From an uncultured Tateyamaria sp. (GTDB taxonomy: Bacteria; Pseudomonadota; Alphaproteobacteria; Rhodobacterales; Rhodobacteraceae): a stretch of 64,000 bases of DNA. This document shows positions 286 through 6,721 of this stretch, piece after piece. The DNA lies in contig NZ_CANNES010000006.1 of the NCBI RefSeq assembly GCF_947503705.1, positions 1-64,000 on the forward strand, in the 5' to 3' direction. Below the pieces are notes generated by a model. It made no database searches. It worked only from the letters and a program-made list of their open reading frames with translations, and was not told where the DNA came from. Numbering within the stretch: the first letter of the stretch is position 1; each line of letters begins with the position of its first letter. The translations under genes were made by a program, and so were the position numbers.

Positions 286-1338
286 GTGATCACATCAGCA
301 ATCCCCAAAGATCGCCCCTTGCGGGCTGTGATTGTCGACGACTCGCTAACCATGCGGCGTTGGCTGGACAGTGTCCTGAACCGCGATGCCAGGCTTCAAG
401 TTGTCGGCATGGCGGGAACCGCTGAAGAGGCGCGTGCGGTCATAAAGGCGACACAGCCGGATGTCCTGACGCTGGACATTGAAATGCCCGGTATGAATGG
501 TTTGGAGTTTCTGTCGCATATTATGCGGTTGCGTCCCATGCCGGTGGTCATGCTGTCCTCCAGGTTTGACAAAAACCTGTCTTTTGTTGCCAAAGCCAAA
601 CAGATAGGTGCGGTTGCGTGCGTCAAGAAACCTGTCTTTCCAACGCCAACCGCGGTTCAGCATTTGTGCGATCAGATTGTCGCCGCAGTGCGAGGTACCA
701 CCGGCGCACAAAAAACGTCGTCGCTGGCACCGCGCACCGCAGCCAACAGCAAAGTCATCCTGATCGGCGCGTCAACAGGTGGCGTGGCTGCGATTGAGGC
801 TTTGCTGTCCCAAACACCTCAGGATGCGCCGCCAATCGTCATCGCACAACATATGCCGCATGCCTTTCTGGTCAGCTTTGTTGAGCGATTGAACCGGCTT
901 TCGGGCCGAAACGTGGACTTTGCGCAGGATGGTGATGTTCTGAACCCGGGCGAGGTTCGGATTGCTCCTTCGCAAGCGATGCAAACCTGTATTGCCTGGC
1001 ACAGCAATGCATGGCGCATCCAACATGTAGAACAACAGCCCGAACATATGTTCTGCCCTTCGGTCGATGTTCTGTTTTCCTCGGCCGCCCCTTGGGCGAG
1101 ATATGTCGCCGCTGCACTTTTGACCGGGTTGGGAACGGACGGAGCTCGGGGCATGCAAACACTGTTGCAAAACGGCGCCCAGACGGTTGTGCAATCACAA
1201 GAAAGCTGCGTCGTCTACGGAATGCCGGGGGCGGCGCAGCGGTTGGGCGCGGCCCAGCACGAGGTTGATATTGGTGAAATTGGACCGCTGTTGATGAAAC
1301 TGGTGGCAACCCCTGTCCACATGGGGGGCGGGCTTTGA
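286..1338 (+). CDS. cheB: Chemotaxis response regulator protein-glutamate methylesterase CheB
   Basis: This enzyme removes methyl groups from (and can deamidate) chemoreceptor glutamates during adaptation. An N-terminal receiver domain (about residues 12-125) has the acidic pair D18-D19 and phosphoacceptor D64 in TLDIEMPG. The C-terminal esterase domain shows the serine motif IGASTGG (about 165), the histidine in IAQHMP and the aspartate in GLGTDGARGM, which form the family's Ser-His-Asp triad. At 350 residues it has normal length. The start is GTG at 286, chosen because it places the receiver strand correctly. Its stop overlaps the cheD start by four bases, so the two are probably translationally coupled. 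It points toward, not along, the cheA operon. Confidence 0.95.
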   Translation: MITSAIPKDRPLRAVIVDDSLTMRRWLDSVLNRDARLQVVGMAGTAEEARAVIKATQPDVLTLDIEMPGMNGLEFLSHIMRLRPMPVVMLSSRFDKNLSFVAKAKQIGAVACVKKPVFPTPTAVQHLCDQIVAAVRGTTGAQKTSSLAPRTAANSKVILIGASTGGVAAIEALLSQTPQDAPPIVIAQHMPHAFLVSFVERLNRLSGRNVDFAQDGDVLNPGEVRIAPSQAMQTCIAWHSNAWRIQHVEQQPEHMFCPSVDVLFSSAAPWARYVAAALLTGLGTDGARGMQTLLQNGAQTVVQSQESCVVYGMPGAAQRLGAAQHEVDIGEIGPLLMKLVATPVHMGGGL

Positions 1339-1847
1339 CAGAGACCCGTTTGCATATCACCCAGGGCGAATTTGCGGTGGGTACTGATCATGAGCTCGTG
1401 ATTTCGACGTTGCTTGGATCCTGCGTTTCTTGCTGTCTCTGGGATTGCGAGGCCGGTGTCGGTGGTATGAACCATATGTTGTTGGCCCGGCCAAGTGCAG
1501 GCGCATCTGCGCATACCCTGTCCGGCATCAATGCAATGGAATTGTTGATCAACGAGTTGATCAAACTGGGGGCACGGCGTGACAGACTGAGCGCAAAGGT
1601 CTTTGGTGGAGCCCGCATGATCTCTGGCTTGTCAGATATCGGCGCGGAAAATGCTGCGTTCACCAAAGCCTATCTTGAGGCCGAAGGAATTCCATTGGTG
1701 ACTGAATCCCTGGGGGGGTGCCAGGCGCGCAACTTGCGTTTTTGGCCGACCACAGGTCGGGCGCAGCAAAAACTGACGGATGTACGGTTGCGGGACGCGG
1801 AAAGTCATGCGCCATTGTCCACAGGCAATGCGATTGAGTTGTTCTGA
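1335..1847 (+). CDS. cheD: Chemoreceptor glutamine deamidase CheD
   Basis: CheD deamidates glutamines on methyl-accepting chemotaxis proteins so that they become methylatable. The 170-residue protein has the family's nucleophile C30 in LGSCVSCC and catalytic H47 in GGMNHMLL, followed by the KVFGGARM segment. The start is TTG at 1335, inside a TTGA overlap with the cheB stop; no ATG lies at a suitable place. It is the last gene of the short cheBD unit and is convergent with the - strand chemotaxis operon; only 39 bases separate the two stop codons. Confidence 0.93.
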   Translation: MTETRLHITQGEFAVGTDHELVISTLLGSCVSCCLWDCEAGVGGMNHMLLARPSAGASAHTLSGINAMELLINELIKLGARRDRLSAKVFGGARMISGLSDIGAENAAFTKAYLEAEGIPLVTESLGGCQARNLRFWPTTGRAQQKLTDVRLRDAESHAPLSTGNAIELF

Positions 1848-1886: not shown

Positions 1887-2222
1887 TTAGAAGAGATCAA
1901 CCACACCCGAAGCTTGAGTTGCTTGTTTTGGCGCGTCGTTCAAGAGATCGCGCGTCGCAGAAAGCTTCAATGAGTTAAGGTGGTGTACACGATCCTGACC
2001 GTCAGCAGTCAATGCTTGGACCAGCCGCGACAGGTCTCGCAGAGACTGGGACAGGTGGTCGAGGCGCTGAAGGTCCTGGACGAAGGTGGATGTGACGGAA
2101 TCCCGCTGATGCGCGATCAATTGCGCCACGATATGTTCGATATAAAGCGCGTCGTCGGAAAGCGAACCCAAATGTGTGGCAACGCGATCAAGCGTGAGTG
2201 GATCAACGTGATGTTCCGTCAC
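1887..2222 (-). CDS. Small helical chemotaxis protein with DxxxQ motif, CheT/CheZ-like phosphatase candidate
   Basis: This 111-residue protein appears all-helical and does not match a family I can name with certainty. Residues 55-59 read DHLSQ, fitting the DxxxQ signature of CheZ and of the small Sinorhizobium CheT protein, where Asp and Gln promote dephosphorylation of CheY. The tail ends in DLF, a short acidic-hydrophobic end of the kind CheZ uses to dock on CheY, though this is only suggestive. The GTG start overlaps the stop of the upstream cheY by four bases (GTGA), so it should be made together with that CheY. It is the last gene of the operon. The gene is well supported; the phosphatase function is inference. 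Confidence 0.6.
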   Translation of the reverse strand: MTEHHVDPLTLDRVATHLGSLSDDALYIEHIVAQLIAHQRDSVTSTFVQDLQRLDHLSQSLRDLSRLVQALTADGQDRVHHLNSLKLSATRDLLNDAPKQATQASGVVDLF

Positions 2223-2605
2223 AGCGGCCCCACGACGGTTTCAATGCATTTTCGCAGATCTGCGGGTTCGAATGGTTTTTTGAGATAGTTGTTCATACCC
2301 AGTTTACGGCCGTAATCGATGATCTGTTGTTCGGCGCGGCCAGTGATCAGAATAAATCCAATCCCTTTTGTTTTGGCAGCACTGCGCAAGTGGTGCAAAA
2401 GCTTCAACCCGTCCATGTTCGGCATGTTATAGTCCGAGATGACCAAGTGTACGGGGCTCTTGGCAAGAGTTTGCAGCGCGTCGTTCCCGTCTTCGGCCGT
2501 CGACACATGGCGCACACCCAAACCGTCCAGTGCCTGAGTGATCAAGCCGCGGCTTGTGGACATATCGTCCACGACCATGATCCGTATTTGATCGCGCAAT
2601 GCCAT
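2219..2605 (-). CDS. Single-domain response regulator, CheY-like
   Basis: This is a 128-residue stand-alone receiver domain. The acidic pair lies in MVVDDMS, the phosphoacceptor aspartate in ISDYNMPNMDG, the conserved Thr in LITGRAE and the conserved Lys in YLKKPFEP. The ATG at 2605 is preceded by a GGGAG ribosome-binding site; an upstream in-frame extension into cheR looks non-coding. It follows cheR by 13 bases and overlaps the downstream small DxxxQ gene. It is one of two CheY proteins in this locus, so one may drive the motor while the other serves as a phosphate sink; the sequence does not decide which. Confidence 0.92.
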   Translation of the reverse strand: MALRDQIRIMVVDDMSTSRGLITQALDGLGVRHVSTAEDGNDALQTLAKSPVHLVISDYNMPNMDGLKLLHHLRSAAKTKGIGFILITGRAEQQIIDYGRKLGMNNYLKKPFEPADLRKCIETVVGPL

Positions 2606-2618
2606 GCGACGTCTCCCG

Positions 2619-3485
2619 TTAATTATGCCGAATTGCGGAAAGTTGTTTGTCTGCTTTGTAAGCAGTGGGCCCGATTGTCGAAAATCCAAAGCTGTCGGGT
2701 GAGCTGATCCGTTCTGAATGCCCGAGGAAAAACATGCCATCTTGTGCCAGTGCTTCTTTGAATCTTGGCCAGAGCTTTTCTTGGGTTTTTGTATCAAAAT
2801 AGATGACCACATTTCTGCAAAAAATCGCGTCGAATGTCTGTCGCATCGGCCACGCGCCAAGCAGGTTCAATTCTCTGAAGGAAATGATTTTTTTGAGATA
2901 ATCCTGCACAGTCAAGCATCCCGCGTTGTTTGGCGCCTGTTCAAAAAAGCCGGACTTGTTGGCCTCTGACACTGCCGTCAGTTGCTGTTCTGGATATGTG
3001 CCGCGTGTTGCAAACGCGACGACGTTCGGATCGATGTCGGTGGCCAGTATACGAAAGTCTGCGCGTGCCAGAGCAGGCTCGGTACGACACAAGTGCATTG
3101 CAATCGAATAGGGTTCTTGACCGTTTGAACAACCTGCCGACCAAATGCGGATGCGTTGGCCGGTGGCAATTTTCTTTCTGAAGATCGGCAAAAGATGCTC
3201 GGTCAGCAGATCGAAATGGTGTGGTTCGCGAAAAAAATGTGACACGTTTGTGGTGAGAGCGGAAATCATAAAGCGGAGTTCATCGCGCCCCGGATCAGAA
3301 CATACCAGCGAGGCATATTGGTCAAAATCGTGTATCTGCAAAGCGCGAAGCCTGTGCCTGAGGCGGGATTGGACCATCAGCAGCTTCTCCGGCACCAACA
3401 GCAAACCGCTTTCACGATAGGCCAACGCGGCAATATCCTTGAATGTATCAAGGCCGAGCGTGGCTTGTGTCGCGCCCGCAGACAT
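2619..3485 (-). CDS. cheR: Chemotaxis protein-glutamate O-methyltransferase CheR
   Basis: CheR uses S-adenosylmethionine to methylate receptor glutamates. The 288-residue protein has the N-terminal helical CheR domain and then the methyltransferase fold. The SAM-binding motif IWSAGCSNGQEPYS lies near residue 120, and FCRNVVIYF lies near residue 225. There is no added TPR or pentapeptide-binding domain. The ATG shares one base with the TAA stop of cheW (TAATG), an arrangement typical of coupled translation. It follows cheA and cheW in the - strand operon. Confidence 0.95.
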   Translation of the reverse strand: MSAGATQATLGLDTFKDIAALAYRESGLLLVPEKLLMVQSRLRHRLRALQIHDFDQYASLVCSDPGRDELRFMISALTTNVSHFFREPHHFDLLTEHLLPIFRKKIATGQRIRIWSAGCSNGQEPYSIAMHLCRTEPALARADFRILATDIDPNVVAFATRGTYPEQQLTAVSEANKSGFFEQAPNNAGCLTVQDYLKKIISFRELNLLGAWPMRQTFDAIFCRNVVIYFDTKTQEKLWPRFKEALAQDGMFFLGHSERISSPDSFGFSTIGPTAYKADKQLSAIRHN

Positions 3486-3943
3486 TAAGCCGCGTCGCTG
3501 CGCAAAGTGTTCACGATATGCGAGAGGTCGAGCACACGGATCATGCGATCATCGATCAACGTCAGTGACTTGATCACACTCGGACCTTGGCCCGAGGTGC
3601 TGTCCGGTGGTGGCTGCAAGTCTTCTTCGGTCAGCGCAATGATATCGGATACCGCATCGACCAACAGACCTGTCATGATGTCATCATGTTTGACAACGAT
3701 GATCACGTTCCGCTCCGTTTTGTCTCGCACCGGCAGGCCAAGCCGTTCGGCCAGATCCATCACTGGCAAAACGGTGCCACGCAGGTTTATCACACCCTTC
3801 ATGTAGCTTGGCGCGTGGGGCAGGGGGGTGGCGCGTGTCCACCCGCGAATTTCGCGAACACACATGATGTCGAGGGAATATTCCTGATCGCTCAACTCAA
3901 AAGTGAGCAGTTCAACGGGCGTGGCAGTCTTTTTGTCACTCAT
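3485..3943 (-). CDS. cheW: Chemotaxis coupling protein CheW
   Basis: CheW links chemoreceptors to the kinase CheA at the inner face of the membrane. The 152-residue protein is a single CheW domain. It begins TFELSDQEYSLDI and carries the typical MKGVINLRGTVLPVMDL core and a LLVDAVSDI segment. One base separates it from the cheA stop and one base overlaps cheR, so cheA, cheW and cheR form a tightly packed unit. Confidence 0.95.
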   Translation of the reverse strand: MSDKKTATPVELLTFELSDQEYSLDIMCVREIRGWTRATPLPHAPSYMKGVINLRGTVLPVMDLAERLGLPVRDKTERNVIIVVKHDDIMTGLLVDAVSDIIALTEEDLQPPPDSTSGQGPSVIKSLTLIDDRMIRVLDLSHIVNTLRSDAA

Positions 3944-3944
3944 C

Positions 3945-6071
3945 TCAAGCTTCCTGTTTTTGCAAGGCAGGTGCGGGCATAATATCCGTGCTTGCCTGCG
4001 CGATGATGTCGGATGGATCCAGGATCAACGCGATCTGTCCGTCGCCAAGAATCGTTGCGGCGGCGATCCCCGGGGCCCGATAAAACCCGTCGTCGAGACC
4101 TTTGATGACGACCTGTCTCTGGTCTTGGATCTCGTCCACGATGAGGGCTGCACGCGTGCCGTCCTCTTGCGTAATCAAAAGTGCGGCACTGTCCACGTAA
4201 CTGTCTCGGCGTTCACGGTAGCCCAGTTGCAGACCCAAATCGAACAGCGGAACAAAGCCCCCACGCACGCGCACCACATTGAAACCGGGCTGGATTTCAT
4301 CAAGGTTTTCAGCGCTCAAGGTGAGGGTCTCCGCGACAACATTCAGGGGCAATACAAGCGTTTCGTCGGCGACTTTCACAACCATTCCGTCCAACACCGC
4401 AAGCGTCAATGGCAGCGAAATCGAAAAGGTGGTGCCCTCGCCCCTGTTCGAGGAAATCGAAATCCGCCCGCCGAGCGATTGAATAGAGGTGCGCACCACA
4501 TCCATGCCCACACCGCGCCCGGACAGATCGGACACTGTACCAGCGGTCGAGAATCCGGGCAGAAACAGAAGGTTGTCGATTTCGGATTCCGAAAGTGCAC
4601 TGTCGGCTGGAATCAGCCCTTTATCGATTGCGATTTGCATGACGCTTGGCCGGTCAATCCCCCCGCCATCATCGCTCACTTCGATGATAACACGACCTGA
4701 GCGATGTGCTGCCGTGAGGCGCACTTGCCCTTCAGCGGGTTTGCCGGCCGCAGCCCTGTCTTGGGTGTTTTCCAACCCGTGATCGACCGCATTGCGGATC
4801 ATGTGTGTCAGTGGGTCGGCCAATCGCTCGATCACGGTCTTGTCGACTTCGGTCGTCTCGCCTTCGGTGATCAGGCGCACGTCTTTGCCAACCGCCGCAG
4901 ACGCTTCGCGCACGATGCGTGACATGCGTTGAAACAGGGATTTCACCGGCTGTGCCCGGATCATCATTACGCTGTCCTGAATGTCACGCGTAAGCCGCTG
5001 AAACTCCTCCAGGCCGTTCATGGCATCGGAATGTGGGGATAAACCGGAGCTTTCGAGGCTTTGCGCCAACATGGCCTGATTGATCACGAGTTCGCCAACG
5101 AGGTTGACCAAACGCTCGATCCGGTCGAGATCAACGCGTACAACGGATTTCGCAGCAGTTGGCGGTGGGGTGCTGACCTTTCGCTCGACTATGGGAGGGG
5201 CAAGGGGTTCTTCGGTGATCGGGAGAAGTTCTGAATCAGGAGCAGGTGTTTCCAGCTCGAGAAGCGAAGGAAGCGTTTCGCCGGTGGTCATACCGTCATT
5301 GAGAGAGGAAATAGTAAGGCTGCACAGCCCTTCAACGAACTCAAAGACAGACGTGACCTCGTCTTTGTGCGCTTGGGTGTGAAGGTCGATGGTCCACCAC
5401 AAATACGGAGTTTCCGGCGCCAGTTCGACGAGGGTCGGGATCTTTTCAGTATGGCAAGTGACCTTGCAATCGCCCATGTCACACAGCGCTCGCAGGATTG
5501 GGACGGCGTCATTGCCTGTCTCGAACATCTCAGGCTCAGGGGCGAAGGTGATGCGAAAGCCCGACTGTGGGCTTGAATTGTCTGGCGTCGCATCCAAGTC
5601 GGGGAGGTCCGGCAGATCAAAATCCAGCGCCAATCCCAACGGTTGAAAGTCGATTTCTTCGTCTGCCTCTGTTTCGTCCTCGGTGACGTGTTTGTTCAGC
5701 TCTGTCAGAATTGCCTGTCCTTCGGCATCAGGCATGTCCAATTCATCGCGACAGGCGCGCACGAGGTCCGACAGATGGTCAGCGGCACGGAAGAATAGTT
5801 TCAGCAGGTCAGGTTCGACTGTTAGATGCCCGCTGCGGACCTGATCAAGCACGGTCTCGTAACGGTGCGCGAAGCGCACGAGCGGTTCGAGGCCAAACGC
5901 CCCGGCACCCCCCTTGATCGAGTGGACCGCGCGAAAGACGATGTTGATGGTTTCAGTATCGTCCGCGCCATCATCCATCACCTGTAGCTCGTCTTGCATC
6001 GCTTCAAGCAGTTCCTCGCATTCAATGAAAAACGACGCGCGGATCTCGGCCATCGGATCGGGGGAGGTCAT
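3945..6071 (-). CDS. cheA: Chemotaxis histidine kinase CheA
   Basis: CheA autophosphorylates and passes phosphate to CheY and CheB. The 708-residue protein has an N-terminal HPt domain with phosphoacceptor H50 in FRAVHSIKGGAGAFG. Residues 170-290 form a less conserved P2-like region. The dimerisation helices (RIERLVNLVGELVINQ, near 305), an HHATPase domain (DPLTHMIRNAVDHGLE and the GRGVGMDVVR box) and a C-terminal CheW-like regulatory domain follow. Domain order and length are standard for class P5-containing CheA. It lies 9 bases after cheY and immediately before cheW. Confidence 0.96.
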   Translation of the reverse strand: MTSPDPMAEIRASFFIECEELLEAMQDELQVMDDGADDTETINIVFRAVHSIKGGAGAFGLEPLVRFAHRYETVLDQVRSGHLTVEPDLLKLFFRAADHLSDLVRACRDELDMPDAEGQAILTELNKHVTEDETEADEEIDFQPLGLALDFDLPDLPDLDATPDNSSPQSGFRITFAPEPEMFETGNDAVPILRALCDMGDCKVTCHTEKIPTLVELAPETPYLWWTIDLHTQAHKDEVTSVFEFVEGLCSLTISSLNDGMTTGETLPSLLELETPAPDSELLPITEEPLAPPIVERKVSTPPPTAAKSVVRVDLDRIERLVNLVGELVINQAMLAQSLESSGLSPHSDAMNGLEEFQRLTRDIQDSVMMIRAQPVKSLFQRMSRIVREASAAVGKDVRLITEGETTEVDKTVIERLADPLTHMIRNAVDHGLENTQDRAAAGKPAEGQVRLTAAHRSGRVIIEVSDDGGGIDRPSVMQIAIDKGLIPADSALSESEIDNLLFLPGFSTAGTVSDLSGRGVGMDVVRTSIQSLGGRISISSNRGEGTTFSISLPLTLAVLDGMVVKVADETLVLPLNVVAETLTLSAENLDEIQPGFNVVRVRGGFVPLFDLGLQLGYRERRDSYVDSAALLITQEDGTRAALIVDEIQDQRQVVIKGLDDGFYRAPGIAAATILGDGQIALILDPSDIIAQASTDIMPAPALQKQEA

Positions 6072-6080
6072 CAGATGCTC

Positions 6081-6446
6081 CTATCCTGCAACCATTTGCA
6101 AGGCTTTGACGAGCTTGGCCGGATCGAAGGGTTTTACGATCCAACCGGTGGCACCCGCGTTTCGGGCGCGCATTTTCAGTTCGGGCGCCGCCTCGGTGGT
6201 CAGGACCAGAATGGGTGTCGCACGGTGGCTGCTTTGATCGCGCACCGCGTCGATGAAGCCGAACCCGTCCATGCGGGGCATATTGATGTCAGTGATGATC
6301 ACGTCCGGTGTAATACCGGACAGTACCTCGGTGCCGTGCACGCCATCGTCAGCGGTGTGGACGGTGAACCCAGCAGGCTCAAGCGCGAGCCGGATCATGT
6401 CGCGCATCGTGCGGCTGTCGTCTACGGCCAGAACTTCAAGGGTCAT
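6081..6446 (-). CDS. cheY: Chemotaxis response regulator CheY
   Basis: This is a 121-residue receiver-only protein. It has the acidic pair in LAVDDSRTMRD, the phosphoacceptor aspartate in IITDINMPRMDG, the switch Thr in LVLTTEAAP and the Lys in WIVKPFDP. Trp stands where E. coli CheY has Tyr106. It sits directly upstream of cheA and overlaps the STAS gene by four bases. It is distinct in sequence from the second CheY at the end of the operon. Confidence 0.95.
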   Translation of the reverse strand: MTLEVLAVDDSRTMRDMIRLALEPAGFTVHTADDGVHGTEVLSGITPDVIITDINMPRMDGFGFIDAVRDQSSHRATPILVLTTEAAPELKMRARNAGATGWIVKPFDPAKLVKALQMVAG

Positions 6447-6721
6447 CGCGCACCCTCCGCCAGCATTTCAGGGGTCAGTCCCATGCAGGACAATTGCTGC
6501 ACTGCGCGTTCGGTCAGCCCGGTGATCTCAAGGCTGCCGCCCGCATCCAGAACGGTCCGGGCAGCACTTATGATCGATTGGGCGCAAAGGGCCCCCAAAT
6601 GGGTGATTTCGCTGCCGTCCAAGACAACTTTACCCCCTGGCACCTGAGACGCCATGCTTTGCGTTAGAGTTGCGACCGCTGCCAGATCCAGCCGCGGTGG
6701 CAATACAATCGGTTCAACCAT
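6443..6721 (-). CDS. STAS-domain protein at the head of the chemotaxis operon
   Basis: This 92-residue protein has the size and alternating strand-helix pattern of a single STAS (anti-sigma-antagonist-like) domain, with VVLDGSEITHLGALCAQ as the central segment. I do not see the usual DSxG phosphoserine loop, so phosphorylation control of the SpoIIAA kind is doubtful. It is the first gene of the - strand che operon and overlaps cheY by four bases. Its role is unknown; it may be an accessory protein of the signalling complex. Confidence 0.8.
   Translation of the reverse strand: MVEPIVLPPRLDLAAVATLTQSMASQVPGGKVVLDGSEITHLGALCAQSIISAARTVLDAGGSLEITGLTERAVQQLSCMGLTPEMLAEGAR

Follow-up and report, generated by a model that had tools for sequence, protein, structure and literature searches.

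A candidate CheT-like CheY-P phosphatase encoded at the end of a Rhodobacteraceae chemotaxis operon

How do Rhodobacteraceae end a chemotaxis signal if they carry no classical CheZ? The question is raised by a 64,000-nucleotide stretch of DNA from an uncultured Tateyamaria sp. (positions 1 to 64,000 of contig NZ_CANNES010000006.1, assembly GCF_947503705.1), hereafter the window. The final gene of its che operon is an unnamed open reading frame (ORF) on the minus strand, 1887-2222, with a GTG start and 111 residues. The start overlaps the stop of a cheY gene (2219-2605, minus strand) by four bases (GTGA at 2222-2219), and cheR lies two genes upstream. The product carries D55 (codon 2058-2060) and Q59 (codon 2046-2048) and has the C-terminus VVDLF. 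All of this reads as claimed in the original prediction, made from the sequence alone, which took the product for a CheZ- or CheT-like protein that dephosphorylates CheY. Our analysis suggests a divergent CheT-like phosphatase of phosphorylated CheY (CheY-P), probably working like CheT. We infer this activity from the conservation of D55 and Q59, from homology to CheT and from a search for CheZ (PF04344), which gave no match in any of 198 family genomes or in the source genome. On these grounds the gene remains the candidate for signal termination in Rhodobacteraceae that it was predicted to be, and the premise that the family lacks classical CheZ held as well in these 198 genomes.

The ortholog sample came from a scan of contigs with the adjacent CheY, which gave 241 relatives; the best 80 were kept, some of them close kin. 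Because the orthologs were picked by the neighbouring CheY only, they were not selected for the motif. An ORF of 110-156 residues was the next gene in 79 of the 80 loci, and the contig of the 80th ends there. Among these 79 orthologs and the window protein, Q52, D55 and D63 were each found in 80/80 and Q59 in 79/80. No other columns vary so little in this fast-evolving protein, in which column identity averages 26% over a 47-row alignment (the window protein and 46 orthologs out of the 79, without ortholog L078 and near-duplicates, so that invariance there is no separate count). Q52, D55 and Q59 were also invariant in a set of 21 rows with S. meliloti, Ruegeria, Phaeobacter and Novosphingobium among them. 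Within the same genus a match was found in 17 of 20 genomes (source genome included), the other 16 at 28-46% identity. As judged from these alignments, the conservation of D55xxxQ59 is far beyond chance; the prediction had turned on these two residues, and the check in orthologs found both kept. The ORF also behaves as a real gene, since third codon positions hold most of the differences in four close ortholog pairs (third versus other positions: 43 vs 14+12, 16 vs 7+4, 25 vs 8+5 and 14 vs 8+3).

CheT was reportedly described by Agbekudzi and others in 2024. In the public record of S. meliloti Ak57, the che operon contains genes for STAS, cheY, cheA, cheW, cheR, cheB, cheY, cheD and a hypothetical protein, and this last protein is CheT by the model NF047973 (225.5 bits). 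When the Rhodobacteraceae profile was compared with it, hhalign gave a score of 28.2 (E 1e-4), and the D and Q of the two lined up. As controls, the best of 200 CheT shuffles scored 17.6, and none of 118 other products of ORFs 100-220 residues long exceeded 20.3; the highest-scoring of these resembled CheD. Bridging members matched the CheT model itself, L107 with E 1.3e-5 over residues 14-111 and from the same operon type, L032 with E 6.8e-8. The model was matched at E 0.1 or better by 8 of the 47 members, and no other family was matched as often. At locus L014 the order cheY, cheD, CheT-like gene is that of S. meliloti. Profile, controls and bridging members together support homology of the family to S. 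meliloti CheT, and the predicted likeness to Sinorhizobium CheT stands on this evidence. With the wider CheT family the window protein shares sequence homology, DxxxQ and a che operon with two cheY genes, cheR and a STAS gene.

The predicted fold is a small helical hairpin, with D55 and Q59 in the middle of helix 45-72. An ideal-helix calculation placed Q52, D55, Q59 and D63 (codons within 2034-2069, minus strand) opposite the hydrophobic side. The modelled fold gives no ground for the objection of a buried motif that the prediction had itself raised. The predicted local distance difference test (pLDDT) was below 50 at residues 102-104 and 106-111. None of the 50 rows in the fold comparison was CheZ, which speaks neither for nor against a CheZ fold. 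In the mechanism we propose, the second helix of the hairpin would present the stripe Q52, D55, Q59, D63, and D55 and Q59 would reach the active site of phosphorylated CheY, as in CheZ and S. meliloti CheT. Dephosphorylation of CheY-P would be sped up, and the signal to the motor would thereby end where CheZ is missing. We infer three parts of this picture: catalysis, the target CheY and the binding partner of the tail. For S. meliloti CheT, a review reports faster dephosphorylation of one of the two CheY and binding to CheR (PMC12654446).

A profile search (E 0.001) found the CheT-like gene in 67 of 198 genera of the family, where some of the genomes may have supplied profile rows. CheA was sought in 80 of the 198 genomes. 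Of the 67 genomes that have the gene, 28 were covered, and CheA was present in 28/28; of the 131 that lack it, 52 were covered, and CheA was present in 16/52 (Fisher p 2e-10). In 27 of the 28 the gene and a CheA domain share a contig and are within 5 kb of each other, whereas in G079 the two are on different contigs. Single-sequence searches were weak: at E 0.01 they matched 14 of the 198 genomes, some doubtfully, and such a search of genome contigs gave no match. Across the class, the NCBI CheT model matched 2 of 289 genomes at E 0.01, and an RNA marker of Rhizobiaceae was found in 0/289. The class profile search gave 21 matches. Seven were trusted (E 1.4e-11 or better), of which four (source genome, G467, G255 and G375) had supplied profile rows and three are independent. 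The other 14, weak and inside open frames of 288 to 1028 residues, were not trusted. A profile search of the PDB returned keratin coiled coils (E 2.7e-5), which were rejected as composition artefacts, and because of this artefact trust was limited to the 7 of 21.

CheT-like proteins annotated as hypothetical are also encoded on large plasmids of Ruegeria TM1040 (L114 5389-5718, motif LQDFDLISQ) and Phaeobacter inhibens 2.10 (L115 5384-5728, LQDFDLVVQ). On a Novosphingobium plasmid, a 91-residue protein with LQAIDLIGQ follows cheW (L119 6459-6734), which suggests that CheT-like proteins also occur in Sphingomonadales. None of the three proteins ends in the tail form described below, which homologs in Sulfitobacter and Tateyamaria do carry.

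Which CheY would be the target? The adjacent CheY (PF00072, E 2.7e-24) is CheY2-like, 41% identical to S. meliloti CheY2 and 27% to CheY1. The CheY encoded before cheA (6081-6446, minus strand; PF00072, E 2.9e-27) is CheY1-like, 60% identical to S. meliloti CheY1. Two genomes of the same genus carry, between cheR and the CheT-like gene, an open frame that has lost the receiver signature: the phosphorylation-site motif is missing in G209, and in G198 the sequence is unrecognisable as CheY. Both retain an intact cheY before cheA, and their CheT-like proteins still have D, Q and the tail. Since the CheT-like protein was kept despite this decay, the adjacent CheY can hardly be its only reason to exist. 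The dedicated coupling to the adjacent CheY that had been predicted is thus doubtful, and the CheY1-like protein appears at least as likely a target. The decay is consistent with the account that S. meliloti CheT acts on just one of its two CheY; the passages of PMC12654446 that report this do not say which. Among the loci, in the position of the second cheY, L025 (1070-1462) holds a degenerate receiver and L026 (1070-1459) an unrecognisable sequence, in open frames of the same length as that gene, each flanked by an intact cheR and an intact CheT-like gene (also L232 and L233).

The C-terminal tail GVVDLF (1890-1907, minus strand) is a low-confidence, probably disordered end, whose DLF the prediction had read as a possible CheY-docking tail. 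After inspecting tails we defined a tail form, hydrophobic-D/E-x-F/W, and counted it over the 80 loci and the window in mechanically chosen ORFs with duplicates removed. It was found in 25/26 CheD, 37/50 CheT-like proteins and 7/14 receptors, versus 1/708 other ORFs, 0/34 CheB, 0/63 CheR and 0/49 response regulators. Over all orthologs, 49/79 have the form and 30/79 do not fit. The window CheD (1335-1847, plus strand; PF03975, E 5.0e-24) ends in IELF (1833-1844), and in S. meliloti CheT ends in DFEAF and CheD in PIEFF. Because CheD carries the same tail, which also resembles receptor tethers, docking of DLF to CheY is doubtful. A sliding-clamp motif, considered as a candidate for the tail, was dropped, as there is no reason for one in CheD.

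In alphaproteobacterial CheD this tag falls within the last 12 residues in 23/25 (window CheD included; one locus had no ORF). It is terminal in 9/25 and followed by further residues in 14 more, and these further residues make it a poor fit to a free-end tether. In a phylum-wide CheD sample, in which a few ORFs may be wrong picks, the tag was within the last 12 residues in 13/28; in compact CheD of about 158 residues it was found in 0/11. Many proteobacterial CheD end in or near hydrophobic-D/E-L-F after a glycine. With the tag so widespread in CheD, the partner of the tail need not be specific to CheT.

A glycine insertion may mark pentapeptide-dependent CheR. This mark was not found in PMC7698151 and was not used here. 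The source genome has five receptor-domain matches, of which one (G000:C3:377210, L121) ends in GWEEF, the tether of P. aeruginosa McpB (PMC7698151), and the other four have no such end. Like the receptor pentapeptides NWETF and GWEEF, the window tail is acidic, closes with F and sits on a flexible segment. However, the published tether rule is xZxxZ with F, W or Y at Z (PMC7390727), and VVDLF has V at a Z position. The rule fits 0/50 CheT-like ends, whereas S. meliloti DFEAF fits. We put forward only tentatively, as possible but not probable, that the tag of CheT-like proteins and CheD is a relaxed form of the receptor tether, by which CheR and CheB are recruited. If so, a single docking site on CheR or CheB would be contested by phosphatase, deamidase and receptors, which would physically couple CheY-P removal to receptor adaptation.

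Several results weigh against a CheT-like phosphatase. The hhalign probability for the CheT match was only 57%. NF047973 was the best NCBIfam match of the window protein, at 14.2 bits; as this is below the cut-off of 200 bits, the protein is not filed as a CheT equivalog. Pfam gave sub-threshold matches only, with no family reaching its cut-off and PF04344 not listed. L078 has L at the Q59 position, the fold search matched generic hairpins only, and the CheT-like protein stays intact in G209 and G198 beside a degenerate or unrecognisable CheY. Of the 52 genomes tested in which no CheT-like gene was detected, 16 have CheA, so the protein is not present throughout the family. Might the product then be an unrelated helical protein, its CheT likeness a matter of coiled-coil composition and its motif kept for structure? 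The profile that matched keratin includes the window protein, so helical composition does inflate scores, and 14 of the 21 class matches are weak ones within long open frames. Yet neither the shuffles nor the other ORF products reached the CheT score, L107 matches the CheT model over residues 14-111 in the same operon, and the invariant residues are polar and opposite the hydrophobic side. We regard this explanation as very improbable. A CheZ in the narrow sense, with DLF as a CheZ-type CheY-docking tail, is hardly credible. E. coli CheZ has the same D-x3-Q spacing on a helix (D143/Q147), is helical, adjoins cheY and ends in a tail after a linker. However, it has 214 residues, about twice the length, and a longer, different C-terminal end, whereas the window tail is common to CheD. 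No sequence similarity was found (hhalign probability 0.6%), and the source genome has no match to the CheZ profile.

The protein could instead serve as an adaptor of the adaptation enzymes, binding CheR (or CheB) and tuning receptor methylation, with the DxxxQ stripe as a binding surface and not a catalytic site. A CheT-CheR complex is reported for S. meliloti (PMC12654446), and the tail shared with CheD and like receptor tethers would suit such a role, as would survival where the adjacent CheY is lost. The stripe also exceeds a catalytic pair, since Q52 and D63 vary no more than D55 and Q59 do. But the exact D-x3-Q pair of CheZ and CheT is kept, S. meliloti CheT with this pair is reported to speed CheY-P dephosphorylation (PMC12654446), and an intact CheY1-like protein remains in both genomes with a decayed adjacent CheY. 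We consider the adaptor unlikely and favour the CheT-like phosphatase.

The minus-strand order in the window is a STAS-domain gene in the position of S. meliloti cheS (6443-6721; PF13466, E 2.3e-10; 24% identical), cheY, cheA (3945-6071), cheW (3485-3943), cheR (2619-3485; PF01739, E 5.2e-61), the second cheY and the CheT-like gene. On the plus strand, cheB (286-1338) and cheD are convergent with them. Identity to the S. meliloti proteins is 51% for CheA, 46% for CheW and 44% for CheB. The two operons are alike in contents, and in both the last gene encodes a small protein (111 residues here, 124 in S. meliloti) with LQxxDxxxQ and an acidic, hydrophobic end, related at the profile level. They differ in that the window gene follows cheY, with cheB-cheD convergent. 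The two proteins are 30% identical, the window protein falls below the model cut-off, and D63, invariant here, is G in S. meliloti. Rhodobacter sphaeroides can terminate the signal without CheZ by a different route, the CheA3 phosphatase of a split CheA (PMC6829392). The window cheA is the sole CheA (PF02895) match of the source genome, so this route is not evident here.

In listings and passages of open papers we found no account of a CheT-like family in Rhodobacteraceae or of a tail common to CheT and CheD. PMC12654446 already hints at a CheT in this family, since its loose list of bacteria with CheD, CheS and CheT includes Rhodobacter sphaeroides. The window gene offers a concrete candidate, with two residues named, for how the chemotaxis signal may be ended in a family in which no CheZ was found in 198 genomes. 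It extends CheT past the reach of the NCBI model, from 2 of 289 class genomes by that model to 67 of 198 family genera by profile. The tail common to CheD makes testable a physical tie between signal termination and receptor adaptation.
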